DNA of 37,528 nt from positions 1 through 37,528 of IMG/VR virus record IMGVR_UViG_3300025112_000060; one strand, 5' to 3'. The stretch is from a virus. Position numbers and translations under genes: made by a program. Within the stretch, counting starts at the first letter, position 1. Each line of letters starts with the position of its first letter. This document shows positions 1 to 37,528 of the stretch, piece after piece. Below the pieces are notes generated by a model that had not been told where the DNA came from, searched no databases, and was given only the letters and a program-made list of their open reading frames with translations.

Positions 1-1
1 A

Positions 2-925
2 GACACAGATGGCGACTACTTCGACGTGACGGGCACTACGGGCTACGCGGCTATGACCGTCGCAGCTAACCGTCACTTCTTCCTGCAATTCGATGCTGCG
101 TTAGAGATGACGCACCATGCGACTAACCTTGATCTTCCTGGGGAGGCGAACATCACTACTGCTGCTGGTGATGTAGGAGAATTCTTCGCGACAGACGCAA
201 ACACTGTCCAGTGCGTGAATTACACAAAGGCCGATGGTACGGCTGTTGTTATAGGCGCGGATTCAATTGATAGCGCACAGATTGTAGATGACGCTATTGA
301 TAGTGAACACTATACCGATGGTTCAATTGATGAAGCTCACTTAGCAGATAATGCTGTAACTTTAGCGAAGATGGCCGGTGGAACCGATGGTAATATAATT
401 AGTTTTGATGCTTCAGGCGATCCTGTTGCGATTGCAACAGGAGATGATGGACAGGTGCTTACGTCCGCTGGGGCGGGACAACCTCCAGCATTTGAGGATG
501 CTGGTGGTGGTGGCGGCAAGGTTCTTCAAGTGGTGACTGCGACGACCAGCACAGCCGTTTCATCCAACAGCGACACGCGGGCAGACACTGGGCTTACGGC
601 GTCGATCACACCAGCGGACACAGCTAACAAAATTTTGGTGCTTATTTCTCAGCACTGTTCGGCGGGTGGGGGCCGTGCGAACGGTGACATCCACATAATG
701 CGCGACGCCGTCGACCTAATTAACTATTCACAACAAGCTAACGTCGACAACTACATGGGCAACTCCTTTTTCCAGTATTTGGACAGCCCCAGCAGTGTTT
801 CCAGCATCACATACAAGACCCAGCAAGCGCTTGTGGATCAGTCGGGCTTATTTATAACCAACAGAACCGATAGTAGTGGCACCTCCTATAGCTACATCAC
901 CCTAATCGAATTGGATTATTCATGA
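2..925 (+). CDS. Tail fiber protein, C-terminal part (5' end outside window)
   Basis: The reading frame is open from base 2, so only the C-terminal ~307 residues are present. The first visible residues (DGDYFDVTG, then HFFLQFD, LTHHATNL-like and NYTKADGTAVV) are the recurrent pyocin/podovirus fiber segment that follows collagen-like or repeat regions. A stretch of short beta-repeat modules (SIDSAQIVDDAID, SIDEAHLADNAV) and a poly-glycine hinge near residue 165 follow, and the end is Tyr/Ser-rich and beta-predicted. It should form a trimeric receptor-binding fiber. The stop overlaps the next gene by ATGA. If the window ends are joined, this frame continues the fiber gene that begins at 36243. 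Codon use is more AT-rich than in the replication genes, as is common in exchanged receptor-binding modules. Confidence 0.8.
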   Translation, partial: DTDGDYFDVTGTTGYAAMTVAANRHFFLQFDAALEMTHHATNLDLPGEANITTAAGDVGEFFATDANTVQCVNYTKADGTAVVIGADSIDSAQIVDDAIDSEHYTDGSIDEAHLADNAVTLAKMAGGTDGNIISFDASGDPVAIATGDDGQVLTSAGAGQPPAFEDAGGGGGKVLQVVTATTSTAVSSNSDTRADTGLTASITPADTANKILVLISQHCSAGGGRANGDIHIMRDAVDLINYSQQANVDNYMGNSFFQYLDSPSSVSSITYKTQQALVDQSGLFITNRTDSSGTSYSYITLIELDYS

Positions 926-1251
926 TGACTATCGAAAAAGTAGAGGCACTGGTCTCACTTCAGCCAGACGCAAAATTTGTTGTGACCGGCGACATAATTC
1001 GGTGGGATTCGCCGGACATTTCACAGCCGACTAATGATGAGATCACAGAGGAGATTGCTCGCTTAACAAGCGCCGAGCCCATGCGTCTGTTGCGTATCGA
1101 ACGAAATAAGCGGTTGCATGATTGTGACTGGTGGGCATCGTCTGATCTAGAGATGAGTCAGGATCAAATTGATTACCGCCAAGCACTCCGCGATCTTCCT
1201 GCAAATACTCCAGACCCTGGCAACCCTATTTGGCCGACTGCACCAGAATGA
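922..1251 (+). CDS. Tail fiber assembly chaperone (Phage_tail_APC-like)
   Basis: A 109-residue protein whose C-terminal half carries the signature of phage tail assembly chaperones: an LRxERNKRLxxxDWW stretch (residues ~56-72), followed by DQIDYRQALRDLP and a PIWP ending. In the family these proteins assist folding or trimerisation of the adjacent fiber and are normally the next gene, as here. The ATG overlaps the fiber stop (ATGA), so translation is probably coupled. The N-terminal ~45 residues are a variable domain. The family is recognised from motif and context; the exact role is inferred. Confidence 0.75.
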   Translation: MMTIEKVEALVSLQPDAKFVVTGDIIRWDSPDISQPTNDEITEEIARLTSAEPMRLLRIERNKRLHDCDWWASSDLEMSQDQIDYRQALRDLPANTPDPGNPIWPTAPE

Positions 1252-1258
1252 GGCTAAA

Positions 1259-2107
1259 ATGAGAAATTTCCTATGTGTCCTGGCGATGCTTGCTTTGTGG
1301 ACACCTGTCCAAGCTGGTGAACCAATTGATTATAAAATCAAGCATCACCAGATGCTTTACACTACTGTCCTATTGTCGGGCGGGATTGGTTCAGGCTCAG
1401 GCACTGTTATTTTCAGTGGTAAGGTCGATGTTGATGGTGAAGCCGAAGTCCACACTTATATTCTAACTAACCATCATGTTATCCGTCGCTCTATCCACAT
1501 CAAGGAAGAGTGGAATCCTCAAACCAAGAAAGAGACTAAGACAGAGACTAGAGATTTAGTTGAGGCATTTTGGTTTGAGTATAATGATTATTCAGTGATG
1601 GTCGGCAAGACAGGTCGTCGGGCAGAAATCATCGCCTACGATGCCAACGCCGATCTTGCTGTGCTTCGCCTTATTGACACCGAGCGGTTTATCGAGAACG
1701 TAGCCAATCTGATGCCTCGAGAAGACAAGCTACATCAGTTCGAGAAGGTGTACGCAGTGGGGGCAGGGCTTGGATTCCCGCCTTTTAGCACTGATGGAAC
1801 GGTGGGCTACAACGACGGACTGTGGAAGGGGCATCGTTATGTCCTTACGACAGCCCCAATAATTTTTGGAAATTCTGGCGGCGCACTGTTTCGCTGGAGT
1901 GATATTAGCAATTCCTACGAACTAGCTGGGGTGCCGTCCGCCGTTTCAAATGCTGGGTTCGCCGGTCCTGTCACTCACATGGCCTGGAGTATTCCGATTG
2001 AGACGGTGTACGAGGTGCTTGAGGACAACTATCTTTGTCACATCTGGACCGACCCCTGCCCGGCAGAAGAAAAAGATGGTGCTTCAAATGACCCATCGGC
2101 GGACTGA
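1259..2107 (+). CDS. Secreted trypsin-like serine protease
   Basis: A 282-residue protein. The start at 1259 is preferred to upstream in-frame codons because it lies just after the chaperone stop and gives a clean Sec signal peptide (basic MRN, hydrophobic FLCVLAMLALW, cleavage after VQA at ~residue 19). The chymotrypsin-fold triad is readable: TNHHV (catalytic His73), ANADLAVLRL (Asp132) and GNSGGAL (Ser206), with a GSGSG strand motif at ~44-48 as in Deg/HtrA-type proteases. There is no PDZ domain; the C-terminus (~35 residues) is acidic and probably disordered. It should act in the periplasm or outside the cell. It sits between the fiber chaperone and the lysis genes, so it may be a lysis accessory, a virion maturation enzyme or a host-envelope modifier. 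The fold and triad are clear; the substrate is unknown. Confidence 0.85.
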   Translation: MRNFLCVLAMLALWTPVQAGEPIDYKIKHHQMLYTTVLLSGGIGSGSGTVIFSGKVDVDGEAEVHTYILTNHHVIRRSIHIKEEWNPQTKKETKTETRDLVEAFWFEYNDYSVMVGKTGRRAEIIAYDANADLAVLRLIDTERFIENVANLMPREDKLHQFEKVYAVGAGLGFPPFSTDGTVGYNDGLWKGHRYVLTTAPIIFGNSGGALFRWSDISNSYELAGVPSAVSNAGFAGPVTHMAWSIPIETVYEVLEDNYLCHIWTDPCPAEEKDGASNDPSAD

Positions 2108-2348
2108 TTCCGATAGCAATGGAGCCGGGCATCGTCGGCTGATGCAGAGGCCGTTCGTGATCCCGCTTGCCACGGTCCTAGCCGCCATGGGAACTGCCAT
2201 GGCCGTAGGCGTTAGTTACGGGCAGGCGGTAGACAACATCGGCGACAATACGGCCAGGATCGAGCGCGTGGAAGAAAGGGTCATAGCCGAATTAAGGGCC
2301 ATAAACCGAAAACTCGACATGCTCTTCTCTCCAAGGCCTAGACAGTGA
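2076..2348 (+). CDS. Small membrane protein with C-terminal coiled coil, lysis region
   Basis: A 90-residue protein with a hydrophilic N-terminus, one membrane span (~residues 29-50, rich in Ala, Val, Met and Gly) and a charged heptad-like C-terminus (NTARIERVEERV.AELRAINRKLDML). The start at 2076 follows a purine-rich site (agaagaaaaag). A second ATG at 2088 is also possible. It overlaps the protease stop by 32 bases, and its own stop overlaps the GTG of the wall hydrolase (GTGA). Position just before the hydrolase and the single-span topology suggest a holin or pinholin-like lysis protein, but no family is recognised. A structural membrane anchor is an alternative. Confidence 0.6.
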   Translation: MVLQMTHRRTDSDSNGAGHRRLMQRPFVIPLATVLAAMGTAMAVGVSYGQAVDNIGDNTARIERVEERVIAELRAINRKLDMLFSPRPRQ

Positions 2349-2752
2349 TCACCGCTTCCGACATCGATACCCTGACCCGCACGGTTTGGGGCGAGGCCAG
2401 AGGCGAATCCTACGAGGGCCAGAAAGCCGTAGCCCATGTCGTGATCAACCGATGGAAAGCCGACGAGGGGCAGTTCCAACGGGACGATACAATTGCCACG
2501 GCCTGTTTGCGACATGCCCAGTTCTCCTGCTGGACCGCGACCGACCCGAACTTCGAGGAAATGCAGACAATTGGGTTTGGAGCGCGGTCGTTCCGCATCG
2601 CCATGCGCGCCGCCCTGGAGGCGCTTGACGAGCCAGACCCTACTGAGGGAGCGAAGCACTATCACACTGCTGGAGTCAGCCCAGAGTGGAGTAAACGCCG
2701 GGAGCCCGTGGTTGTTATCGGCAAGCATTACTTCTTCGTCGGTATTTTATAA
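2345..2752 (+). CDS. Cell wall hydrolase, SleB type (endolysin)
   Basis: A 135-residue protein of the SleB/Hydrolase_2 family (PF07486). The diagnostic N-terminal stretch TVWGEARGE (residues 13-21) holds the presumed catalytic Glu, and the family motifs QKAVAHVVINR, AQFSCW and the closing GAKHYHTAGVSPEW are all present. It has no signal peptide and no binding domain, as expected for a holin-released lysin. The start is GTG at 2345, overlapping the upstream stop (GTGA). It probably cleaves the glycan backbone of peptidoglycan and is the lysin of this phage: no lysozyme or amidase is seen elsewhere. Confidence 0.85.
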   Translation: MITASDIDTLTRTVWGEARGESYEGQKAVAHVVINRWKADEGQFQRDDTIATACLRHAQFSCWTATDPNFEEMQTIGFGARSFRIAMRAALEALDEPDPTEGAKHYHTAGVSPEWSKRREPVVVIGKHYFFVGIL

Positions 2753-2770
2753 ACAACGGGCGGTGGTCAT

Positions 2771-3937
2771 GTGGTTGACGAGAAACTCCGAGAGTTCGCG
2801 ACTGAAAAACAGTGGGCGTATTACCTAGCTGTTGATGAACACGGCTCTCAGAAGGCCGCGTCCAGGGCGCTGGGGATAACCCAAAGCACTATTGGCCGAT
2901 CTGTTCTGGCGCTCAAGAAGAAGGCTGCTCTACATGGCTACTCCCCGGATCACGATATCGTTCATCCGGCAGCACCCGGCTTTGTGTCAAAGGGCCACAG
3001 CACGCTGTATGACAGCGCCACAGGCGAAGCCAAACTTCAATGGCATAAGACCCAGCGGGATGAGCAGCAGGCCGGTCTGGCCCGGCAGGCGGCCCTTGAA
3101 GCCATGCTGGAGGAGATACCACCGGCCCAGCCAATCGAGCCGGTTGCTCTCGTCGGGAATGACCTGCTTAACCTGTATATCCTGACCGACTACCATCTGG
3201 GCATGTTGGCCTGGGGCGAAGAAACCGGTGAAGATTGGGACATAAAAATCGCTGAGAAGCTGCTTCTTGATTGGTTTACGGCAGCGATAGAGCAGGCTCC
3301 CAAAGCCGATGTAGGGCTGTTTTGTCAGCTCGGAGATTTTCTCCACATCGATGGGCTCGTTCCCATCACGCCGGCTTCCGGTAATATTCTTGATGCTGAT
3401 ACGAGATTCCAAAATATTGTGCGTGTCGCGGTACGCACGACCAAGCAGATCATTAGCATGTTGCGAGCAAAATATGCTCATGTTCATGTCATCTGTGCAG
3501 ACGCAAATCACGATCCTGCGAGTGGGGTGTGGTTGCGAGAAATGCTTGCTTCAGCCCACCAGGATGACGACTCCATAACCGTGGACACTAGCCCCGATAC
3601 CTATTATTGTTTCCCATGGGGTGATACCAGTTTGTTTTTCCACCATGGACACAAACGAAAACCAACCAGCATTGAGGGTGTCTTCGCCGCCAAATTCAGG
3701 GATATATGGGGTGGCAGTAAGTATAGTTATGCTCATCTTGGTCATATGCACCACCTTAAAGCTCTTGAGGGCAACTTAATGATCGTCGAGCAACATAGAA
3801 CGCTCGCGGCCAAGGACGCATACTCTTCCTCCCGAGGTTTTTTGTCAGGCCGCTCGGCCTCAGTTATTACATATCGTAAGCAGCATGGCGAAGTAGGCCG
3901 TGTTACATTGACTCCCGAAATGGTCACGCCTGTGTGA
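2771..3937 (+). CDS. Helix-turn-helix / metallophosphoesterase fusion protein
   Basis: A 388-residue protein with two parts. Residues ~10-52 form a helix-turn-helix (GSQKAASRALGITQSTIGRSV) resembling a terminase-small or winged DNA-binding region. Residues ~135-340 carry the calcineurin-like metallophosphoesterase motifs in order: LTDYH (Asp140, His142), LGDFLH (Asp189, His192), ANHD (Asn246, His247), HHGH (292-294) and GHMH (325-327). The metal-binding set is complete, so it should be an active phosphodiesterase or nuclease directed to DNA by its N-terminus. The start is GTG at 2771; an ATG two bases upstream is in another frame. Similar fusions occur in proteobacterial phages without a known function. 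Lying inside the lysis module is odd for a DNA enzyme; it may be a late nuclease. Confidence 0.75.
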   Translation: MVDEKLREFATEKQWAYYLAVDEHGSQKAASRALGITQSTIGRSVLALKKKAALHGYSPDHDIVHPAAPGFVSKGHSTLYDSATGEAKLQWHKTQRDEQQAGLARQAALEAMLEEIPPAQPIEPVALVGNDLLNLYILTDYHLGMLAWGEETGEDWDIKIAEKLLLDWFTAAIEQAPKADVGLFCQLGDFLHIDGLVPITPASGNILDADTRFQNIVRVAVRTTKQIISMLRAKYAHVHVICADANHDPASGVWLREMLASAHQDDDSITVDTSPDTYYCFPWGDTSLFFHHGHKRKPTSIEGVFAAKFRDIWGGSKYSYAHLGHMHHLKALEGNLMIVEQHRTLAAKDAYSSSRGFLSGRSASVITYRKQHGEVGRVTLTPEMVTPV

Positions 3938-3962
3938 CCATAAACACTGAAGGATGAAAATT

Positions 3963-4166
3963 ATGACAACGGAAATCTCGAAGCCATTTTGGGCATCTAA
4001 AACCTTATGGGTAAATTTGATTGCCTTGGCGGCTGCTATCTCTACCGCGTTTGGCGTCGACCTAGGTCTCAACCCGGAAGCGCAGATCGCTGTCGTCGGC
4101 ACCGTAATGAGCGTAATCAACATCGTCTTGCGTCTGATCACCAAGGCACCGGTTTCCGTTTCCTAA
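3963..4166 (+). CDS. Holin-like two-span membrane protein
   Basis: A 67-residue protein. The ATG at 3963 is preferred over the in-frame ATG at 3954 because the ribosome site AAGGA (3950-3954) is correctly spaced only for 3963. Two hydrophobic segments (~15-33 and ~43-60) flank a short polar loop (DLGLNPEAQ), and the C-terminus is short and basic-polar (RLITKAPVSVS). The segment FWASKTLWVNLIA and the ending INIVLRLITK recur in small phage membrane proteins found beside lysis genes. The stop overlaps the ATG of the i-spanin (TAATG), so it is a good holin candidate. Assignment rests on topology and context. Confidence 0.6.
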   Translation: MTTEISKPFWASKTLWVNLIALAAAISTAFGVDLGLNPEAQIAVVGTVMSVINIVLRLITKAPVSVS

Positions 4167-4408
4167 TGGCGATCCCGGTCCTAGCCGCATTCAAAGCGGT
4201 TTTTTCTATTCTCGGCCTGCTCGACATTATTGCCGGGTGGATCGAGAAGGCACAGATGCGGGCAACCATTCGAGCGGAGAACGCCAATGAAGAGTTTAAA
4301 CAGGTCGCAGGGCGTATCAGGGAGGACAAGGGTTTGGTTTTCAAAATTCGCAGCAGCGGCGATGCTCTTCTTGCAAGGTTGCGACGGCGTTACGCTGCTG
4401 ACCCATGA
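4166..4408 (+). CDS. Inner-membrane spanin (Rz-like)
   Basis: An 80-residue protein with an N-terminal membrane anchor (~residues 4-25, VLAAFKAVFSILGLLDIIAGW) and a long charged helix after it (KAQMRATIRAENANEEFKQVAGRIREDK), ending basic. Topology and size fit an i-spanin anchored in the inner membrane with a periplasmic coiled coil. The decisive evidence is that a lipoprotein gene starts inside it in another frame (4287), the classic embedded Rz/Rz1 arrangement. Together they would fuse inner and outer membranes in the last step of lysis. Confidence 0.7.
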   Translation: MAIPVLAAFKAVFSILGLLDIIAGWIEKAQMRATIRAENANEEFKQVAGRIREDKGLVFKIRSSGDALLARLRRRYAADP

Positions 4409-4550
4409 TTTTTGCTTGAGAGACGCCCTGATATTGGTGACCGCAGGTGATGTGGTTGAGGGGTCGGCAACGGAAACGGAAATCATCGCTCACAATGCTC
4501 GGCTTGAGTGTGGGTGCCCTGACGCGCCGGCCTGGTGCGAGGAACTGTGA
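4287..4550 (+). CDS. Outer-membrane spanin lipoprotein (Rz1-like), embedded start
   Basis: An 87-residue protein starting within the i-spanin gene in the +1 frame and running past its end. The ATG at 4287 follows a GGAGA ribosome site (~4276-4280). Residues 16-31 are hydrophobic and end in a lipobox, Leu29-Gln30-Gly31-Cys32, so Cys32 should be lipidated and the mature part is about 56 residues. That part has four cysteines and the pattern ILVTAGDVV..STxTEIxAHN..LECGC, seen in small lipoproteins at the end of phage lysis modules. It is the probable outer-membrane partner of the upstream gene. Confidence 0.75.
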   Translation: MKSLNRSQGVSGRTRVWFSKFAAAAMLFLQGCDGVTLLTHDFCLRDALILVTAGDVVEGSATETEIIAHNARLECGCPDAPAWCEEL

Positions 4551-4553
4551 CGC

Positions 4554-4613
4554 ATGAGTTGGCAATGGTGGGCGGCGCTTATCGTCATAGCCCTGCTGGT
4601 GGGGTTTGGGTGA
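4554..4613 (+). CDS. Possible 19-residue hydrophobic peptide
   Basis: A short frame, MSWQWWAALIVIALLVGFG, begins four bases after the o-spanin stop. Nearly the whole peptide is one membrane span with a Trp-rich N-terminus. No good ribosome site is visible, but it could be reached by coupled translation from the upstream gene. It could be a membrane micro-peptide of the lysis module or a chance frame. Confidence 0.3.
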   Translation: MSWQWWAALIVIALLVGFG

Positions 4614-4614
4614 C

Positions 4615-4818
4615 TCATACCAGCGCCCCGCCGTTCCGGGCCGCAAAATCCGCGCAGTCAGCGCACAGGCGATTACCCGGCCCGTTGGACATGAACGACC
4701 GATCCGGCTTGTCCCTGCACCGCGGACCTAAGCAGTCGCGCAGCGATCTGGCTGTGTCGTCATTGCGCGGCCTTCCCCTGACCTTTATGGCACGGCGCTG
4801 TTTGGGAGGTGGACTCAC
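4615..4818 (-). CDS. Small zinc-ribbon-like phage protein
   Basis: A 67-residue reverse-strand protein starting at a GTG (4818). After a basic N-terminus (KQRRAIKVRGRPRN) there are two cysteine pairs, CLGPRC (~28-33) and CADC (~52-55), separated by the segment PDRSFMSNGPGNRLC. This CxxxxC...GPxNRLCxxC layout is typical of tiny phage zinc-binding proteins. It converges with the lysis operon, ending two bases from it, and is the last gene of a three-gene reverse group. Probably nucleic-acid or protein binding; function unknown. Confidence 0.6.
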   Translation of the reverse strand: MSPPPKQRRAIKVRGRPRNDDTARSLRDCLGPRCRDKPDRSFMSNGPGNRLCADCADFAARNGGALV

Positions 4819-4858
4819 GCTCTTGTCGCCTTGTTGATGGGGAGGTCAGACGCGGCTG

Positions 4859-5152
4859 TCATTGCGCACTGTACACATCCCACGCCCGCTCCTCCATGTT
4901 GGAAACTATCTCAATGAACTTACCGTCGCGGGTGCGAAGGTACAGCCCCTCTGGCTCAAACGGTAGGTCGCCCACGTTCTCATGGGCGTCCATGAGATAG
5001 CACTCGGTAATCTCGATATCCGGGTCTTCAGCGGGTTCGCCGGGGCTGTTTAAACTTGCCGCGCGCGCAGGTCTACCGGGGGTGACGGTCGCGGTTACGT
5101 CGAGTTCGTTATCACCGGGTAGTGTGTAGGTGAATTGAACTGTCTCAGCCAT
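4859..5152 (-). CDS. Hypothetical acidic phage protein
   Basis: A 97-residue acidic protein that I do not recognise. Alternating hydrophobic residues at the start (VQFTYTLPG, ELDVTATVTPG) suggest a small beta domain, followed by a Pro/Glu-rich linker (~35-45) and a mixed C-terminal part. It overlaps the start region of the 5145-5426 gene by eight bases, so the two are translationally coupled. It contains one copy of the GTTTAAAC motif (5048-5055), encoding Leu-Asn. Confidence 0.6.
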   Translation of the reverse strand: MAETVQFTYTLPGDNELDVTATVTPGRPARAASLNSPGEPAEDPDIEITECYLMDAHENVGDLPFEPEGLYLRTRDGKFIEIVSNMEERAWDVYSAQ

Positions 5153-5426
5153 CTTCTTGCTCCTTATCCAGTAGCATAGCCATCGTGCGGGCGTAGCCCG
5201 CGATGTCGATGATGCTATCCAGGTGGTCAGGGGTGCGGCACAGCCGCGCCATCTTGACGCAGATCATGTCGAGCGCATGGCGGATGCGCGGGTTTGGACA
5301 CGCGCTCACGCCACTCTGAAGTGCGACGATATTATTGAAGAGACCACGCGGGTGCCCATAGTGCTCACCGCGCGCTTGCGTGACACTCTGGATGGCCGCG
5401 TCGAACTGTCTGGTGTAGTTGCTCAT
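5145..5426 (-). CDS. DUF6378-like phage protein
   Basis: A 93-residue protein with the features of the DUF6378 family of phage proteins: ARGEHYGHPRGLFNNIVAL near residues 18-36, then a helical MICVKMARL segment and the closing PDHLDSIIDIAGYARTM. The pattern recalls small all-helical MazG-like or nucleotide-related folds, but no activity is established. The ATG at 5426 has a good ribosome site (AAGGTGAG). It is the first gene of the reverse group and faces away from the replication operon across a shared promoter region. Confidence 0.7.
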   Translation of the reverse strand: MSNYTRQFDAAIQSVTQARGEHYGHPRGLFNNIVALQSGVSACPNPRIRHALDMICVKMARLCRTPDHLDSIIDIAGYARTMAMLLDKEQEDG

Positions 5427-5450
5427 TGCTCACCTTCTTACCATGGGTCG

Positions 5451-5479
5451 TTGACTTAATGTATGAAGACTAATACGAT
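5451..5479 (+). promoter_or_regulatory. Candidate sigma70-type promoter for the replication operon
   Basis: TTGACT at 5451-5456, a 17-base spacer and TACGAT at 5474-5479 lie upstream of the first replication gene. A second TTGACT is present on the other strand (5488-5493) as part of a 7-base inverted repeat (TTGACTT ... AAGTCAA), and could serve the reverse genes ending at 5426. Confidence 0.45.
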
Positions 5480-5518
5480 GGCAACGCAAGTCAAGATTAA
5501 ATGCTATGGAGACATCCA

Positions 5519-5731
5519 ATGGGTTCCAAGGCCGAGGCTCTGAGAGACTTGGAGGTGGTCATCAAACAGTACGGCCTCGCACCGTCAACCGTGGGCCGCG
5601 AGATCGCGGGCGACCCCCACTTCCTGGCGCGGCTGCGTGACGACGACAAAACTATTACGACGAACACGCTTGACAAGGTATGGCGCTACATACTAACGGT
5701 TAAGGGTCAATTGGATTTGGATTTGGAATAG
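5519..5731 (+). CDS. Small helix-turn-helix regulator-like protein
   Basis: A 70-residue protein. The ATG at 5519 is chosen over the in-frame ATG at 5501 because GGAGA (5508-5512) is correctly spaced for it. The segment KQYGLAPSTVGREIAGDPHFLARLRDD (~20-46) followed by TNTLDKVWRYI matches the small helix-turn-helix proteins of alphaproteobacteria and their phages (GLSxxxFGxxAxGDPHxxxxLRxG). It is the first gene of the forward replication operon, ten bases before the Cas4-like gene, so it is probably an early transcription regulator. Confidence 0.65.
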   Translation: MGSKAEALRDLEVVIKQYGLAPSTVGREIAGDPHFLARLRDDDKTITTNTLDKVWRYILTVKGQLDLDLE

Positions 5732-5741
5732 GAGAGAGAAC

Positions 5742-6875
5742 ATGGCGATACACCTACCCTACGGTGGGTCCAGCGCGCACCGCACAATCGGTTGCCCAGG
5801 CTGGCTCAAGAAATCAGAAAACCTTCCGCCCCGACCCGCTGGCGCTGCCGCCATCGAGGGGTCCATGCACCATCAGGTGATGGAACACGCCATCCGCGCC
5901 ACGCTCACGCCGGAAGACTTTATCGGCATGGTGTACGCAGAACCGGGGACGGACTTCACCCGCATCTATGAGGCGTCTGACGTTGACCTGACGAACATCG
6001 CCTTCCACGCCACTCACAGACTGCTGGACGATCTCGACATCGACATCATCGAGGTCGAGCCATTCGTTCAGCTTGTGCCGGGTGTCGCTGGCGGGTCCAT
6101 CGACCTGTTGGGTCTGTCGAGCGACGAGACGACGCTGCTCATAGCCGACTACAAGTTCGGTAGCGCGCCTGTGTCCGTCGAGGGCAGTCCCAACTTGGCT
6201 CTGTACGCCATCAGCGCGCGGCATGACTCGTTCACCTCTGACCTGTTCGACAAGGTCGAGCGGATTGTGTTCGCCGTCATCCAGCCGCGCGTCAAGGGTG
6301 TGGTCACGCTCTGGGAGACTAACACCGTGTTCCTGGAGTTGTTTGAAACCCGGTTCAGAGCGGCTATGGACCGCGACTACTTGTCGCCCGGCTCACACTG
6401 CCAGTGGTGTCCCGCTGCGCCGTTCTGCGATACCAAGCGCGCGAGCGTCATGGCGGCGAACCTGTTGGGCGTGAAGGACCAGGATCAACTCAACGCCGCT
6501 GCGGCCATGGTCGAAGAGGTCGAGACCTGGGTCAAGGCGGTCAAGGAAGAGATATACCTACAGATGACCCGAGGTGTGCCGGTCAAGGGTTGGAAGGTCG
6601 TACAAAAACGCCCCACCACCAAGTGGACCGACGAGGCTGGCGCGCGAGCGTTCCTCAAGAGCAAGCGCATCGCGGCCAAGTCAATCACCAAACCCGCCGC
6701 GACCCTGACGCCTAAACAGGTCGCTGAAGTTTTACGGAAAAGGGGTCATGCGTATGACCTGTCGAATTTCATCGTCTCGGAGAGTTCCGGCACGACCATC
6801 GCCACCCTTGATGACCCGCGTGACGCGGTCATCGTCGGCGACGTTCAAGGCGAACTGAGGGACATGATGAAGTAG
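5742..6875 (+). CDS. Cas4-like PD-(D/E)XK nuclease, DUF2800 family
   Basis: A 377-residue protein. The N-terminal SSAHRTIGCPGW motif, the helix EGSMHHQVMEHA (His43/44), GSIDLLG (Asp121) and IADYKFG (Asp136, Lys138) form a RecB-type nuclease site. Cys18 with Cys220, Cys223 and Cys229 (HCQWCPAAPFC) would hold an iron-sulfur cluster, as in Cas4 and AddB. This matches DUF2800 proteins, which precede an ssDNA-binding protein and a family A polymerase in many phages, the order found here. Residues ~230-377 form a helical tail with a KGWKVVQKRPTTKWTD segment typical of the family. Likely role: end processing for phage recombination and replication. Confidence 0.85.
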   Translation: MAIHLPYGGSSAHRTIGCPGWLKKSENLPPRPAGAAAIEGSMHHQVMEHAIRATLTPEDFIGMVYAEPGTDFTRIYEASDVDLTNIAFHATHRLLDDLDIDIIEVEPFVQLVPGVAGGSIDLLGLSSDETTLLIADYKFGSAPVSVEGSPNLALYAISARHDSFTSDLFDKVERIVFAVIQPRVKGVVTLWETNTVFLELFETRFRAAMDRDYLSPGSHCQWCPAAPFCDTKRASVMAANLLGVKDQDQLNAAAAMVEEVETWVKAVKEEIYLQMTRGVPVKGWKVVQKRPTTKWTDEAGARAFLKSKRIAAKSITKPAATLTPKQVAEVLRKRGHAYDLSNFIVSESSGTTIATLDDPRDAVIVGDVQGELRDMMK

Positions 6876-6877
6876 CG

Positions 6878-6901
6878 CGGTACATGAGTACCGTTATTTT
6901 T
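6878..6901 (+). terminator. Terminator-like hairpin inside the replication operon
   Basis: CGGTAC (6878-6883) and GTACCG (6888-6893) form a perfect 6-bp stem with an ATGA loop, followed by TTATTTTT. It sits two bases after the Cas4-like stop and before the ssDNA-binding candidate. The same outer dyad, CGGTA-N6-TACCG, recurs at 17806-17821, so it may also bind a regulator. Confidence 0.5.
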
Positions 6902-6926
6902 GGAAACTAGGATTAGGAAACGAACG

Positions 6927-7586
6927 ATGAGTACTAACTTTCCCACGGTTATGAACCCGAGTGATCTGTCCACCGCGCTGGCGGGCAGTCAAATCCAGGA
7001 GACGACGGGTCTGGCGGGTTTCTCTTTCTTGAAGATGGACTTTCAGTCCGGTGAGTGGCTACTCGGTCAGGACGCCGAGATCGTCACCGACGAGTTAATC
7101 CTCGTCAACACCACCACCATCATGCACGGCTGGATTCTCTGGTCGGGTGGACGACCCAACAAGTCCTTCGTCAGCTTCACCCAGCCGCTCCCGCAGCCGA
7201 TGGAGCCAATTGGCGAGGACTATCCTTCTGAGGGCCGCTCGTTCCAGGGGGCGCTCATCGATGACGGCGAACCTCTCGCCTTTGATACCAACAGCTACGG
7301 TGGGCGCAAGGGCGTGGACGTTTTGCTGGGCAAGATCAAGGCCCACTCGGCAGAGGGGTCAAAGCACTTGTACCCCAAGGTCAAGCTGACCAGCGAAAAC
7401 TACGTCAACAAGAAGCAGGGCGGCAAGCTGACCTACAATCCGGTGTTCGAGATCGTCGCGTGGTGCGACAATGGCGGCAACGAGGAAGGCAAGGCAGCGG
7501 CACAGGTCGAGGGTCCGACCGAGACGGCGGAAGCCCCGGCGGAAGAGCCTAAGAAGCGCCAGCGGCGTAAGTCTAAAGCGGCGTAG
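6927..7586 (+). CDS. Probable single-stranded DNA-binding protein
   Basis: A 219-residue protein, not matched with certainty to a family. The ATG at 6927 has AGGAAA about eight bases upstream; an in-frame codon at 6900 lies in the terminator tail and is less likely. Alternating strands and aromatic residues (~35-150: GFSFLKMDFQSGEWLLG, MHGWILWSGG) are compatible with an OB-like fold. The tail is unusual: an acidic/Ala/Pro linker (~185-205) ends in the basic run KKRQRRKSKAA, the reverse of the acidic tail of bacterial SSB. Its position between DUF2800 and PolA is where DUF2815-type ssDNA-binding proteins occur. It is bracketed by two terminator hairpins. Function inferred from context. Confidence 0.55.
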   Translation: MSTNFPTVMNPSDLSTALAGSQIQETTGLAGFSFLKMDFQSGEWLLGQDAEIVTDELILVNTTTIMHGWILWSGGRPNKSFVSFTQPLPQPMEPIGEDYPSEGRSFQGALIDDGEPLAFDTNSYGGRKGVDVLLGKIKAHSAEGSKHLYPKVKLTSENYVNKKQGGKLTYNPVFEIVAWCDNGGNEEGKAAAQVEGPTETAEAPAEEPKKRQRRKSKAA

Positions 7587-7605
7587 TTCCCCGTTACGTC
7601 GCCTA

Positions 7606-7648
7606 GGGGCGCAGGTCTTTGTTCCTTTCAGCCTGCGCCCCGCTTTTT
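7606..7648 (+). terminator. Strong intrinsic terminator before the polymerase gene
   Basis: GGGGCGCAGG (7606-7615) pairs perfectly with CCTGCGCCCC (7632-7641) across a 16-base loop, followed by GC and five T. It lies between the ssDNA-binding candidate and the DNA polymerase start, so polymerase expression would need read-through or anti-termination. Confidence 0.7.
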
Positions 7649-7662
7649 CTCTGGAGTCCTCC

Positions 7663-9621
7663 ATGCTGTACCTAGACCTTGAAACTCGCTCCGACGTGGA
7701 CCTGATATTCCACGGGCTGCGGCGCTACGCAATTGACCCCTCGACAGAGGTCATCTGCATGGCGTATGCGCTGGACGACGATCCGGTCGAGTTCTGGTGG
7801 GCCGACGAGCCGTTCCCCCGCGAGGTCGAGGACTACTTCAACAGCGGCGATCCGGTCATGGCCCACAACGCGGGCTTTGAACAGGCCATCTTCCGTTCTG
7901 TCATATCCTTCTCCCATGCCATCACTGAGCCTCACGCCACCCAGTGGCGCTGCTCCATGGCCATTGGCCTCACCAACGGCTACGCGGGCGGGCTGGACGC
8001 CCTGGCGGCGGGTCTGGGGCTGGCCTACCGCAAGAACCCCCAAGGCGCGCGGCTCATTCGTGAGTACTGCGCGCCGGGTCACCTCAAGACGTTTAAACCC
8101 GGCGACGCGGAGATCATGCGGGACTACAACATCTCGGATGTCAAGACCATGCGCGAGGCGGTCCACTGTCTGCGCGATCTCACGCCAGCGGAGTGGGAAG
8201 AGTATCACATCAACGCCATCATCAACGACCGGGGCATACCCATTGACGTAGCGTTCTGCGAGGCCGCGCTGGGCTACACCCGCGAGGTCGCCGACGACGC
8301 CAACGAGCAGATCAGCCTCCTGACCGGTGGGCTTATGACCAAGGCGACGCAGCGCAACAGCCGGGACGCTTGGTTGTTACCCAAGCTGACGCCGCACCAG
8401 ATGGACTTGCTCACGGTCCACAAGAAGGGCATCAAGAAGATCAGCCTGGATCAGGACCACCGCCGTTACCTGTTGGAGTGCGGTGATCTCGACCACGACG
8501 CCCGCGAACTGCTGGAGTACATCGACAACGCCGGGTCTAGCGCGCTCAAGAAATTCGCCGTCGCCAGCCACCAGCATGTCAAGGGCCGCGTCCACAACAC
8601 GTTCCTGTTCAACGGCGCGGGGCGCACGGGCCGGTTCTCGGGCAAGGGGTTGCAGCCCCATAACATCAGGCGCGACGTTTATGGCAACAATGAGGCAGAG
8701 AGCCTTATCCAGGACGTAATCCAAGGGATGGAGATCGACCAGCCCGCCAACACAATGGCCCGTCTGTTGCGCGCCATGATCGCCCATGAGGACGGGCTAT
8801 ATTGGGTCGATTGGTCGAGCATCGAGGGGCGCGTTGCGCCGTGGCTCTCAGCCTCTCAGTCAGGCGAGGCCAAGCTGGAACTGTTCCGGCAAGGCCGCGA
8901 CATCTATGTGGTGACCGCCGCCAGCATGGCGCACCTACCAGAGGCCATGGTCAGCAAAGATCAACGGCAGAGCGGTAAGATCGCCGAGTTGTCGCTCCAG
9001 TTCGGCGGGTCACACAACGCCCTGATCGGCATGGCTAAGAATTATGGCATCACCTTTGAAGAAGACGAGGCCCGTGGCATCGTGGACAAGTGGCGCATGG
9101 CGAACCCCTGGGCGCCCGAGATATGGGCCGCGTATGACAACGCGATCACAGAGGCCGTCTTGAACCCTGGCACAGACCAGAAGGTCAGGCGGGTAACGTA
9201 CCACGCTGACGGCGTCAACTTTCTGTGGTGCGCGCTGCCGTCAGAGCGGCTGCTGTCGTACCCTCGCCCCAAGTTCGAGGCGTACATGACGCCGTGGGAC
9301 GAGGAGCGTATAGGTGTAACATTTCAGTCACACTTCAAACCGGCGGCGGGTGAGCCGCCCACCCGCATCCACGCGCGCGGCGCGCTGCTATTCCAGAACA
9401 CGGTACAGGCTGTCGCCGCCGATTGTCTACGCGAGGCCATCGTGCGGGCGCATGACGAGGAGTTGGAGATCGTCGGTCACGTCCACGACGAGATTATCGG
9501 GCTAGGCGACCGCGCGGCGGGCGAGCGTCTAAACGAGATTATGCTAGAGGAGCCGTGGTGGGCTGATGGTCTGCCACTCGCCACTGGTGGAGTGTCCCAT
9601 GGAAAGAGGTATGGAAAATGA
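7663..9621 (+). CDS. polA: Family A DNA polymerase with 3'-5' exonuclease domain
   Basis: A 652-residue replicative polymerase. The ATG at 7663 is chosen for its GGAG site (~7653) after the terminator, and because it begins directly with the exonuclease motif LDLETRS. The DEDD exonuclease motifs are Asp/Glu at 4-6, AHNAGFE (~66-72) and YNISDV (~150). Polymerase motif A is DWSSIEGR (Asp383), motif B RQSGKIAELSLQFGG (Lys439) and motif C HVHDE (Asp609). In the O-helix the residue equivalent to E. coli Phe762 is Leu443 and that of Tyr766 is Phe447. There is no 5' nuclease domain, as usual in phages. The stop overlaps the next gene (ATGA). Confidence 0.95.
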   Translation: MLYLDLETRSDVDLIFHGLRRYAIDPSTEVICMAYALDDDPVEFWWADEPFPREVEDYFNSGDPVMAHNAGFEQAIFRSVISFSHAITEPHATQWRCSMAIGLTNGYAGGLDALAAGLGLAYRKNPQGARLIREYCAPGHLKTFKPGDAEIMRDYNISDVKTMREAVHCLRDLTPAEWEEYHINAIINDRGIPIDVAFCEAALGYTREVADDANEQISLLTGGLMTKATQRNSRDAWLLPKLTPHQMDLLTVHKKGIKKISLDQDHRRYLLECGDLDHDARELLEYIDNAGSSALKKFAVASHQHVKGRVHNTFLFNGAGRTGRFSGKGLQPHNIRRDVYGNNEAESLIQDVIQGMEIDQPANTMARLLRAMIAHEDGLYWVDWSSIEGRVAPWLSASQSGEAKLELFRQGRDIYVVTAASMAHLPEAMVSKDQRQSGKIAELSLQFGGSHNALIGMAKNYGITFEEDEARGIVDKWRMANPWAPEIWAAYDNAITEAVLNPGTDQKVRRVTYHADGVNFLWCALPSERLLSYPRPKFEAYMTPWDEERIGVTFQSHFKPAAGEPPTRIHARGALLFQNTVQAVAADCLREAIVRAHDEELEIVGHVHDEIIGLGDRAAGERLNEIMLEEPWWADGLPLATGGVSHGKRYGK

Positions 9622-9908
9622 CCAAGACTGAAAAGAATCTTCAAGACTACATCATACGCAACGTCAACCTACGCGGTGGCGTCAGCCGCAAGGTCGAGGC
9701 GGTCGGCCACACGGGCTTCCCTGACCTGTTCCTGGCGCACAAGGGTCGCCTAGTGCTGGTCGAGGTGAAGTCACCGACCGGCAAGGGTCGGCTCGCGGCC
9801 AAGCAAGAGATGGAGATCAAGCGGCTGACCGCCGTGGGCGTTGATGTCCGGGTCATCGACAGCTACGAGGGGGCAGACAATGTCATCGACTATCTCGCGG
9901 ATGTCTAG
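9618..9908 (+). CDS. VRR-NUC domain nuclease
   Basis: A 96-residue stand-alone VRR-NUC protein (PF08774). The PD-(D/E)XK core is visible as TGFPDLFLA (Asp36), LVEVKSPTGKGRL (Glu49, Lys51) and a following Gln63. The domain cuts structured or branched DNA in characterised members. It overlaps the polymerase stop by four bases and the helicase start by eight, so it is tightly coupled to both. It probably acts at replication or recombination junctions. Confidence 0.9.
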   Translation: MTKTEKNLQDYIIRNVNLRGGVSRKVEAVGHTGFPDLFLAHKGRLVLVEVKSPTGKGRLAAKQEMEIKRLTAVGVDVRVIDSYEGADNVIDYLADV

Positions 9909-15741: not shown

Positions 15742-16461
15742 TTAAGCGTTCGCGCGAACAAATCCGCTAGCATCTTTCTTGGCGTCACCTTTAGCCTTCA
15801 AGCCGACAACCACGCCGTTGGGGTCTCTGAAACGCAAGTCGCTTGCGTCACCATCGATGACAGGCACAAGGGTATCGCCAAGCCTGAAAGTCGCAGGGAC
15901 ATCAAAGAACACCGCCGCCACGTTCATGCCATTACGGTATGCTTTGGCCGCTCTGGCGTCGTTATCCTCAGCCAGGGAGTATGTCAGAGAGTAGTTGTGG
16001 GGTAGTTCGCGCCGATTGTGGCGCTTTGTGTAATCGTAGAACGTGATCGCGGGAAACAACGCCATGATATTATCAGCGCCATTCACGGGGACGCGCTCCC
16101 AAGGGATGTCGCTTGAGCCGTTGAGCCGCACAACAGGCGTCAAGCCTTGGCGCTTGGCTTTGCGGACAAGCGCTTCAATCTCTTTAATGAGCGCGACCAT
16201 GAAGGCGGCGCGATCTTCAAAGTACCATTGCGTTTTGGCTGCACGGCTATCGCGGATAGTGTTCGTGATGTCGCCGCGCTTGATGATATTGGCGCGGCCG
16301 GCATTCCAGCCTAGGCAAGCGGCGGAACAGCCCGCCGAGCGCATTGGGCAAACCTCGTAACCGGAGAGGTCGGCGGGCGCGAAGTACATCACGCCAGTAA
16401 GATAACCGAGCTTTTCGCCTTTGATGGTTTTAGCATCGGCGCTAACAGATAAGAGTTTCAT
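15742..16461 (-). CDS. GP88-family phage protein (DUF, putative Cys-cluster enzyme)
   Basis: A 239-residue protein resembling the GP88 family of phage proteins. The ATG at 16461 follows the leader CTTGAAAGGAAACACT. The N-terminus has AKTIKGEKLGYLTGVMYFAPADLSG, then CPMRSAGCSAACL with Cys38, Cys45 and Cys49 (C-x6-C-x3-C). Conserved-looking segments follow: RAAKTQWYFEDRAAFMVALIKEIEALVRKA, VRLNGSSDIPWE, and ITFYDYTKR. The cysteine cluster followed by a TIM-barrel-like strand/helix rhythm recalls iron-sulfur radical enzymes, but this is inference; no function is established. Downstream segments (LTYSLAEDNDARAAKAYRNG) also fit the family. Confidence 0.75.
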   Translation of the reverse strand: MKLLSVSADAKTIKGEKLGYLTGVMYFAPADLSGYEVCPMRSAGCSAACLGWNAGRANIIKRGDITNTIRDSRAAKTQWYFEDRAAFMVALIKEIEALVRKAKRQGLTPVVRLNGSSDIPWERVPVNGADNIMALFPAITFYDYTKRHNRRELPHNYSLTYSLAEDNDARAAKAYRNGMNVAAVFFDVPATFRLGDTLVPVIDGDASDLRFRDPNGVVVGLKAKGDAKKDASGFVRANA

Positions 16462-16541
16462 AGTGTTTCCTTTCAAGAAACGGTTCGGGTCGGTTGACCC
16501 CAGAAACGCGCGCAGTGTTTAAACCGCGCGCGCTTGAGGTG

Positions 16542-17135
16542 TTAACCGATTGTGGTGCGGCCACTACAAATTGGGCAGCCCATATCCTCGCCGCTTGCGT
16601 CAATCCATTTGTTTGAAGTACGGAACACCATGCCACAGTCGGGGCTTTCGCAGGTCACCTTGACCATGCGCGTGGTCTGTTTCTTACGCCCAACGTCCAC
16701 GTTGATTTTCCGGTGGGGGAAATCGCCCAAGGTTTTGAGAATAGATTTGGTGCGCGCCTTAAATATCGGTCCAGGTTCCGTTGCGGTCATTTTACCTACC
16801 AGCCCGATAGACGTCGCGAGCGCGCGGAATTTAGGACCGTGCCCGAACCCTGCGCCCAGCGTCCCATGTACCATCTCGTGTGCCGTGGTCTCCAGTATTT
16901 CCGTAGGCCGGTCGCGCGTTGGTGAAATCATTATCTCGGTTGTCTTGTCGGCGCTGCACTTGGGATAGAAACACTGGCCTATGGTGCGCTTTTTGGAAGC
17001 GAACCCGCCGCTTGATGGCAAGCCGATAGTGGCGCGATATTTCGGCAGCTTCAAACCTTCGGGCTTGAATTCCGCCATGAGAAGGACAATGGCTTGGTCA
17101 AGCCACTCTTGCCGAGTTTTCTTGTGTTTTGTCAT
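16542..17135 (-). CDS. SprT-like zinc metalloprotease
   Basis: A 197-residue protein. The ATG at 17135 is chosen for its AAAGGGAA leader. The zincin motif HEMVH (His86, Glu87, His90) with a third ligand His99 (GHGPKF) identifies a SprT/SPRTN-type fold. A C-terminal zinc ribbon has Cys162, Cys167, Cys187 and Cys190 (TCESPDC, GCPIC). An N-terminal pair (CFYPKC, 55-60) may add another site. Cellular SPRTN proteins degrade proteins crosslinked to DNA; phage homologues are uncharacterised. A role in clearing DNA-bound host proteins or defence factors is possible. It is part of the reverse cassette. Confidence 0.8.
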   Translation of the reverse strand: MTKHKKTRQEWLDQAIVLLMAEFKPEGLKLPKYRATIGLPSSGGFASKKRTIGQCFYPKCSADKTTEIMISPTRDRPTEILETTAHEMVHGTLGAGFGHGPKFRALATSIGLVGKMTATEPGPIFKARTKSILKTLGDFPHRKINVDVGRKKQTTRMVKVTCESPDCGMVFRTSNKWIDASGEDMGCPICSGRTTIG

Positions 17136-17207
17136 TTTGTTCCCTTTCATAGAAACTGGGTTTCGCACAGATTGCCACGACCTAGGCCATGACAATCAAT
17201 TCGGAAC

Positions 17208-36242: not shown

Positions 36243-37528
36243 ATGACAATTAGCTCAACAGCCCTCAGATCAAGCACCGCTGGCAACGGCTCCACCACCG
36301 CGTTCACTTTTCCGTATCTGTTTTTCGCGGAAGACGACCTGACCGTTATCTTGGTTGTGGACAGCACGAACGTCGAAACCACGCAGACCATAACCACCCA
36401 CTACACGGTAGCGGGCGCGGGTGTGGCGGCTGGCGGGACGGTGACGATGGTTTCGGCTCCCGCTGTAGGCGAGACGCTGGTCATACTTCGAGATGAGCAA
36501 TTCACCCAAGGGCTAGACCTAGTCGAGAACGACCCCTTCCCGTCCGACCTTGTTGAAAAACAATTCGACATCCTGACCATGCTGACCCAGCGGTTGAAGG
36601 ACATATCCGACAGGTCGGTCAAACTCTCGGAAGGCGACACCTCTGCGGCGGACACCACCCTCGCAACCCCGGTCGCAAATGCGTTTATCAAGTGGGACAC
36701 GGCGGGCACCGCGCTGACAAGTTCGTCAACGGCGGCGGGTCAAAACCTGGGCGGGGATGGCACAGCGCTGTTGCCTTATTATTCCTACTCAGCGGACCCT
36801 AATTCGGGAGCCTGGAGGGTGGGGGCCGATCAGCTAGGTTGGTCCGTCAATGGCGTTAAAGGGCTTGATCTATCCACCACTGGCCTAGCCGTCACCGGAA
36901 CTCTAGCGGCAACGGCAATCACCGGCTCCGGTATTCTGTCCATCGATGACACAACCGAAACGTCGTCGGGCACCACCGGGTCCATCCACACAGATGGCGG
37001 CGTTGGAATCGCCAAGAAGCTGCACGTCATCGGAACGACCACGCATGGCGGTGATGTGGTTTCGGATACGGATAGTACTGATGATTTAGGTACTACCGGG
37101 GTTCGCTGGGCCAACCTTTTCGTCGATGATATCACTGTTACCACTGCAGTAACGGCAGCAGGCGTTATCACCGGCGCGACTGTTGAGGCAACTGGCGACA
37201 CCAGCGCATCCGATAATGCTGCAATGGGCTACACCGCTGGCGAAGGGCTTATCTTAACTGGCCAGGGAAGTAGCACAGATGTAACCATTAAGAATGACGC
37301 CGATGCTACTGTGATCAGTGTTCCAACTGGTACGACCAATACTACTTTTGGCGGGGACATTGTTTCTGACACCGACAGCACCGATGATATCGGAACCACT
37401 GCTGTCCGCTGGGCCAACCTTTTCGTCGATGATATCACGATGGGCGGCGATCAGACTATCGGTGGCAACCTAACCGTCACCGGAAACCTGACCATTAACG
37501 GCACTACGGTTACCAACGACGCGACCAA
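36243..37528 (+). CDS. Tail fiber protein, N-terminal part (runs off the window)
   Basis: A 428-residue open frame without a stop. The N-terminal ~150 residues match the T7-type fiber attachment domain: STAGNGSTTAFTFPYLFFAEDDLTVILV, ITTHYTV..AGVAAGGTVTM and ENDPFPSDLVEKQFDILTMLTQRLKDISDRSVKL. This part binds the nozzle. The shaft follows, with repeated beta modules (SDTDSTDDLGTTGVRWANLFVDDIT, present twice, and DGGVGIAKKLHV). The 32-base identical direct repeat in the two modules is listed separately. Joining the last two bases to the first base of the window continues in frame (K then DTDGDYFDVTG), giving a fiber of ~737 residues. Start ATG 36243; the ribosome site AGGAA lies at ~36231. Confidence 0.85.
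   Translation, partial: MTISSTALRSSTAGNGSTTAFTFPYLFFAEDDLTVILVVDSTNVETTQTITTHYTVAGAGVAAGGTVTMVSAPAVGETLVILRDEQFTQGLDLVENDPFPSDLVEKQFDILTMLTQRLKDISDRSVKLSEGDTSAADTTLATPVANAFIKWDTAGTALTSSSTAAGQNLGGDGTALLPYYSYSADPNSGAWRVGADQLGWSVNGVKGLDLSTTGLAVTGTLAATAITGSGILSIDDTTETSSGTTGSIHTDGGVGIAKKLHVIGTTTHGGDVVSDTDSTDDLGTTGVRWANLFVDDITVTTAVTAAGVITGATVEATGDTSASDNAAMGYTAGEGLILTGQGSSTDVTIKNDADATVISVPTGTTNTTFGGDIVSDTDSTDDIGTTAVRWANLFVDDITMGGDQTIGGNLTVTGNLTINGTTVTNDAT
37104..37438 (+). repeat. Two direct 32-bp identical repeats in the tail fiber shaft
   Basis: The same 32 bases, starting CGCTGGGCCAACC and ending GATGATATCAC, occur at 37104-37135 and 37407-37438 and encode RWANLFVDDIT in both modules. The flanking codons are diverged at synonymous positions, which points to recombination or selection on the shared segment. 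Confidence 0.8.

Follow-up and report, generated by a model that had tools for sequence, protein, structure and literature searches.

The question raised by this locus is what a trypsin-like protease with a signal peptide would do beside the lysis genes of a phage. The gene belongs to IMG/VR virus record IMGVR_UViG_3300025112_000060, whose 37,528 bases (positions 1 to 37,528) are referred to here as the window. A previous sequence-only reading had described its product as a trypsin-like protease, secreted and encoded in a phage lysis region, unusual in a phage, and had proposed that it acts on an envelope or surface protein in lysis, superinfection exclusion or fibre maturation.

The window and the protease gene

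By its gene content (terminase, portal, capsid, fibre, DNA polymerase, helicase and primase genes) the window is an uncultured podovirus, and the nearest relatives of its portal and terminase are those of the uncultured Podoviridae ct8d5349 (54% and 45% identity). The tail fibre gene is split over both record ends, with the N-terminal part at 36243–37526 and the C-terminal part at 2–925. No terminal repeat turned up, and the genome in this record is either permuted or slightly short of complete. Three genes on the minus strand (5145–5426, 15742–16476 and 16542–17195) run against the general direction, and their matches are phrog_474 ('phosphofructokinase'), phrog_1617 and phrog_6361 (unknown function). 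The features around the protease are the following.

2–925, plus strand: tail fibre gene, C-terminal part, truncated 5' at the record boundary (phrog_892 tail fibre, E 9e-8)
922–1251, plus strand: tail fibre assembly chaperone, just upstream of the protease (PF16778, E 8.7e-12)
1259–2107, plus strand: predicted secreted HtrA/trypsin-like serine protease without PDZ domains, 282 aa (PF13365, triad, AlphaFold2 model, leader)
1259–1315, plus strand: Sec-type signal peptide, M1–A19, predicted cleavage VQA^GEP (rule-based check)
1259–2954, plus strand: mosaic DNA block common to the window and contig L004 (blastn against L004 3744–5416, 75% DNA identity)
2142–2348, plus strand: small membrane protein of 68 aa with an N-terminal transmembrane segment and a coiled-coil tail (TMcc), of i-spanin-like layout, directly downstream of the protease
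2345–2752, plus strand: SleB-type cell-wall hydrolase (endolysin), 135 aa, no leader (PF07486, E 3.1e-21, 76.3 bits against a cut-off of 27; PHROG endolysin, E 1e-17)
2771–3937, plus strand: HTH and exonuclease-like protein, downstream of the protease (phrog_704, E 2.9e-119)
3954–4166, plus strand: holin-like small membrane protein, weak match (phrog_34682 holin, E 0.0018)

The protease coding sequence starts with the ATG at 1259, 7 nt after the chaperone stop, which is overlapped by a GAGG Shine-Dalgarno-like site located 5 nt upstream of the start. Since no promoter-like site was found between the two genes, this short gap and the GAGG site indicate that the protease is probably transcribed along with the late genes. 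Promoter and terminator scans gave hits no more numerous than in shuffled sequences, and nothing was found in a search for RNA structure around the start codon.

Pfam Trypsin_2 (PF13365) matches residues 46–212 of the protein with E 1.3e-14 (55.6 bits against a cut-off of 27.6) and also matches all 50 members of the family alignment A2. The catalytic triad is formed by His73, Asp132 and Ser206 in the motifs TNHHV, DANADLAVL and FGNSGGALF, and these residues and the oxyanion glycine are invariant in 64 of the 64 longer homologues aligned. Proteins 85–89% identical to the window protease are encoded on five contigs; dN/dS is 0.06–0.09 between the window protein and each of these relatives (0.06–0.12 over all pairs of close relatives), which identifies a real gene under selection. 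The family assignment, secretion and purifying selection are thus well supported, and the earlier description of the protein as trypsin-like, secreted and encoded in a lysis region, with a signal peptide and a complete Ser/His/Asp triad, is borne out by the domain, the leader and the chaperone and hydrolase neighbours.

Predicted export, fold and distribution of the family

The leader (MRN / FLCVLAMLALW / TPVQA^GEP) has the features of a Sec signal peptide of the SPase I type, namely a basic n-region, a hydrophobic core with a mean KD of 2.7 and an A-x-A-type site after residue 19; it has no lipobox. Signal peptides were judged in all members by a rule-based check alone, on which the predicted export depends. 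A leader precedes the conserved H-x(2)-ML motif in 40 of the 50 homologues and is absent in eight, while in the other two the sequence that was read is truncated, at an end or at the start, and the full L082 contig restores its leader. The eight leaderless homologues form one clade (support 100/99), so that export would be an ancestral trait kept in the clade of the window protease. This sister clade (L036, L038, L041, L050, L055, L060, L064 and L073) has an intact triad, occurs on contigs of up to 119 kb and sits in other genomic settings; its members are probably cytoplasmic, judging from the missing leader, and their function may differ.

The AlphaFold2 model of the protease, built from the 50-member alignment (mean pLDDT 86.4, pTM 0.83), has as top structural matches DegS, DegP, DegQ and other HtrA catalytic domains (Foldseek E about 1e-11), and DegS, HtrA and DegP structures align to it at VIA Z 21.8–23.7 over about 180–200 residues. 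With the HtrA/DegP/DegQ/DegS proteases (MEROPS S1C) it shares the trypsin fold, the His-Asp-Ser order, the GNSGG motif and periplasmic export, which is here predicted. In contrast to them, the phage protein has about 20–25% identity, carries neither PDZ domains nor the N-terminal anchor of DegS, and belongs to a phage-borne clade with its own signatures, H29-x(3)-L33 and W85/Y108. In fact, no PDZ domain was hit by Pfam in any of the 50 members, the model stops shortly after the barrel, and the NCBIfam equivalog cut-offs for Do/DegP, DegQ and DegS were missed (43.4 against 416.2, 19.7 against 756 and 19.3 against 423 bits, respectively).

The best matches of the catalytic domain would suit a DegP-like, late clean-up of misfolded envelope proteins that delays premature envelope stress or lysis, and the Hsp20 gene found directly upstream of the protease in the group of L047, L048, L056, L059, L061, L074 and L077 points the same way. 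However, HtrA proteases use PDZ domains for substrate capture and control, which the phage enzyme lacks, and bacterial hosts normally have an HtrA of their own. This role in periplasmic proteostasis, which would also leave the pairing with membrane-protein and lysis genes unexplained, is considered rather unlikely.

Among phage proteins, the trypsin-like proteases phrog_11383 and phrog_9683 have weak sequence similarity to the window protease (E 1.7e-11 and 2.8e-7), and BFVD entries such as the 'periplasmic serine protease' of Podoviridae sp. ct9P15 and an HtrA-like protein of Rhizobium phage AF3 have a similar predicted fold with a trypsin-like domain. Such other phage trypsin-like proteases are 23–31% identical to the window protein, and no experimental description of them was found in the literature searched. 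A defence role was discarded, the PADLOC match to RT-Protease_XI (E 1e-4) reflecting the shared trypsin fold only. The catalytic domain is of a known kind, and the novel part is a phage-borne, exported family without PDZ domains and with a membrane partner; the open-access literature, at incomplete coverage, yielded no description of it.

A scan of viral contigs for the motif FGNSGGALF returned 71 stretches, all but two of them homologous to the window protein (E 7e-26 or better). Once copies of one contig are discounted, about 65 IMG/VR loci carry a homologue. Searching 50,697 annotated phage records by tblastn gave only very distant matches (23–31% identity) and none with a leaderless query, and no homologue was found on plasmids. 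A first scan, with patterns from the close alignment, covered 84,980 bacterial and archaeal genomes and found no homologue; the motif IFGNSGGALF matched two stretches in the same genomes, of which one is a homologue (L170) and the other, L083, a fortuitous match in a different reading frame. Both scans used short patterns, by which divergent relatives would be missed. L170 (JAAKFP010000055.1, positions 1–9718) is a 9.7-kb contig in a Chlamydiae MAG that encodes the protease and TMcc, and its genes for a GH108 endolysin and a terminase large subunit mark it as phage DNA; either it belongs to a phage infecting this host, or it was binned into the MAG by mistake. Capture of a host gene was rejected as the origin of the protease, no cellular donor being seen. 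Within the data searched, the family appears to be phage-borne and is found only in phages. The gene is thus unusual among annotated phages, as had been suggested, but its family recurs in uncultured ones.

A mosaic module with a putative membrane partner

The block common to the window and L004 starts exactly at the protease ATG and comprises the protease, TMcc, the hydrolase and the 5' end of the exonuclease gene. The proteins within it are 88% (protease), 61% (TMcc) and 82% (hydrolase) identical between the two contigs, in contrast to those outside it, where the chaperone is 31% and the exonuclease 42% identical and the fibre is similar only locally. On these comparisons the block is a mosaic module with an edge between the protease and the fibre chaperone, and exactly this block is present in L004, one uncultured contig. 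Positions 1–2000 of the window (fibre end, chaperone and protease gene) have a G+C of 43–54% against a genome mean of 57%, which is consistent with exchange of that region. None of 80 relatives of the window exonuclease carries the protease, which is therefore an accessory gene; an assignment of the protease to the exonuclease neighbourhood was rejected on the same count.

Maturation of the fibre or virion by the protease had been suggested by its position beside the fibre chaperone, and a chaperone does adjoin it in the window, in L004 and in the L018/L025 groups. However, the leader would send the protease out of the cytoplasm, where tails are assembled, the fibre genes lie outside the shared module, and most homologues occur in contexts with no fibre gene beside them, so that this proposal is disfavoured and very improbable.

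The link of the protease with TMcc extends beyond the window, a homologue of the latter lying directly downstream in L004, in L082/L170 (33% identity, E 1e-6) and in the L017 and L059 groups (blastp E about 2–4e-4 against the window TMcc; hhalign probability 92). In the L017 and L059 groups and in L082/L170 the pair has other surroundings, either a methyltransferase-like gene next to it or capsid genes on one side and tail genes on the other, and in the L017 group the two genes overlap by 8 nt. This tight coupling across contexts, together with the overlap, could point to a switch in lysis timing in which the target cut by the protease is a lysis protein (holin, antiholin or TMcc) and not a host protein; against it, the membrane proteins encoded downstream belong to several unrelated kinds (1-TM coiled coil and 3-TM holin-like), and such a switch is improbable.

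With regard to neighbourhoods, secreted members clustered at 90% identity have a membrane ORF directly downstream in 12 of 21 clusters, against 30 of 183 (16%) for the background, formed by the remaining long ORFs of these loci (nominal binomial p 2.5e-5), and at 80% identity in 5 of 10 clusters (p 0.014); these p-values are only indicative because the clusters are not independent, and the adjacency is partly a property of lysis or late regions. The next gene encodes a 3-TM holin-like protein in the L018/L025 groups, L034 and L042 (with PF11351). Lysis genes accompany the protease in separate lineages: SleB in the window and L004, an M15 peptidase in L003, the GH108 endolysin in L170, a phage lysozyme and a GTA holin in L028, L057, L058, L072 and L042, and a lysozyme in L048, L074 and L054. 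The protease is found away from an endolysin in the large group of L020, L051, L068 and L080, between a terminase/exonuclease-like gene and the portal gene, and in L059, L061 and L077, between capsid and tail genes.

Upstream of the protease other genes are observed. A small heat-shock gene of the Hsp20 type (PF00011) directly precedes it in L016 as well as in the seven contigs named above. In L005/L013 (IMGVR_UViG_3300025122_000440) the region just upstream holds fibre-like genes flanked by three genes of the QueC-like (PP-loop) type, and in L002 a small, very basic repeat protein (e.g., RRRKATEALSE) is encoded directly upstream at 3096–3473.

A possible role in envelope cleavage and lysis

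An exported protease could also degrade an outer-membrane receptor or another surface protein, and so block superinfection or the sticking of progeny to debris. The predicted export, the broad HtrA-like cleft of the model and the fibre beside the protease in the window and the L018 group would agree with removal of a receptor; in contrast, most lineages have no fibre beside the protease, proteases 88% identical occur with unrelated fibres, where an enzyme aimed at one receptor would be expected to change along with the fibre, and the late gene position is late for exclusion. We hold removal of the receptor to be a fairly unlikely purpose.

Lysis is the likeliest purpose, since the companions of the protease, membrane and lysis genes, point to it. 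The reading that we tentatively prefer, although with less than even confidence, is that of a late periplasmic HtrA-type protease lacking PDZ domains that cleaves envelope proteins, most likely in aid of lysis. The protein would be made late, in one operon with the fibre, chaperone and lysis genes, exported by Sec, and act in the periplasm as a serine endopeptidase with a single HtrA-type catalytic domain free of PDZ control. It would work as a module with the membrane-anchored coiled-coil partner, which may anchor or time it, and with the SleB-type endolysin. Its targets might be, for example, proteins of the outer membrane or those linking that membrane to the wall, whose cleavage would let the outer membrane yield once the endolysin has opened the wall. 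We infer in this way the export and the activity of the protease, its late timing, its contact with the partner, its substrate and its role in lysis. As to the earlier proposal of action on an envelope or surface protein, it stands as the best reading, given the predicted export and the recurrent pairing with membrane and lysis genes, with the substrate kept as a conjecture.

Phages of Gram-negative hosts normally need a spanin or a disruptin to breach the outer membrane (PMC9239132). The module resembles two-component spanins (Rz/Rz1; Mu gp23/gp23.1, PMC9239132) in that TMcc, with its transmembrane segment and coiled coil, adjoins the endolysin and has a second protein, predicted to be exported, encoded beside it; it differs from them in that this protein is a protease and not a lipoprotein. 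A crude scan of the window, which is perhaps incomplete at the fibre gene, found no convincing o-spanin-like ORF with a lipobox, and TMcc homologues matched PHROG/Rz spanins at an insignificant E of 0.04. The protease may substitute for or assist a spanin here; replacement of the spanin is not claimed, because TMcc is laid out like an i-spanin but matches no spanin significantly. The stronger version, in which exported phage-specific PDZ-less HtrA-type proteases and TMcc replace the o-spanin by cutting proteins instead of fusing membranes, as a module common to unrelated uncultured phages, is judged doubtful and is put forward as speculation.

The recurrence of the protease by lysis genes in unrelated uncultured phages, and its near absence from cultured ones, makes it a candidate for a further strategy of breaching the outer membrane; an alternative meaning of an exported phage protease is late remodelling of the envelope. 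For these phages, the protease is possibly an additional means of breaking up or reshaping the host envelope.
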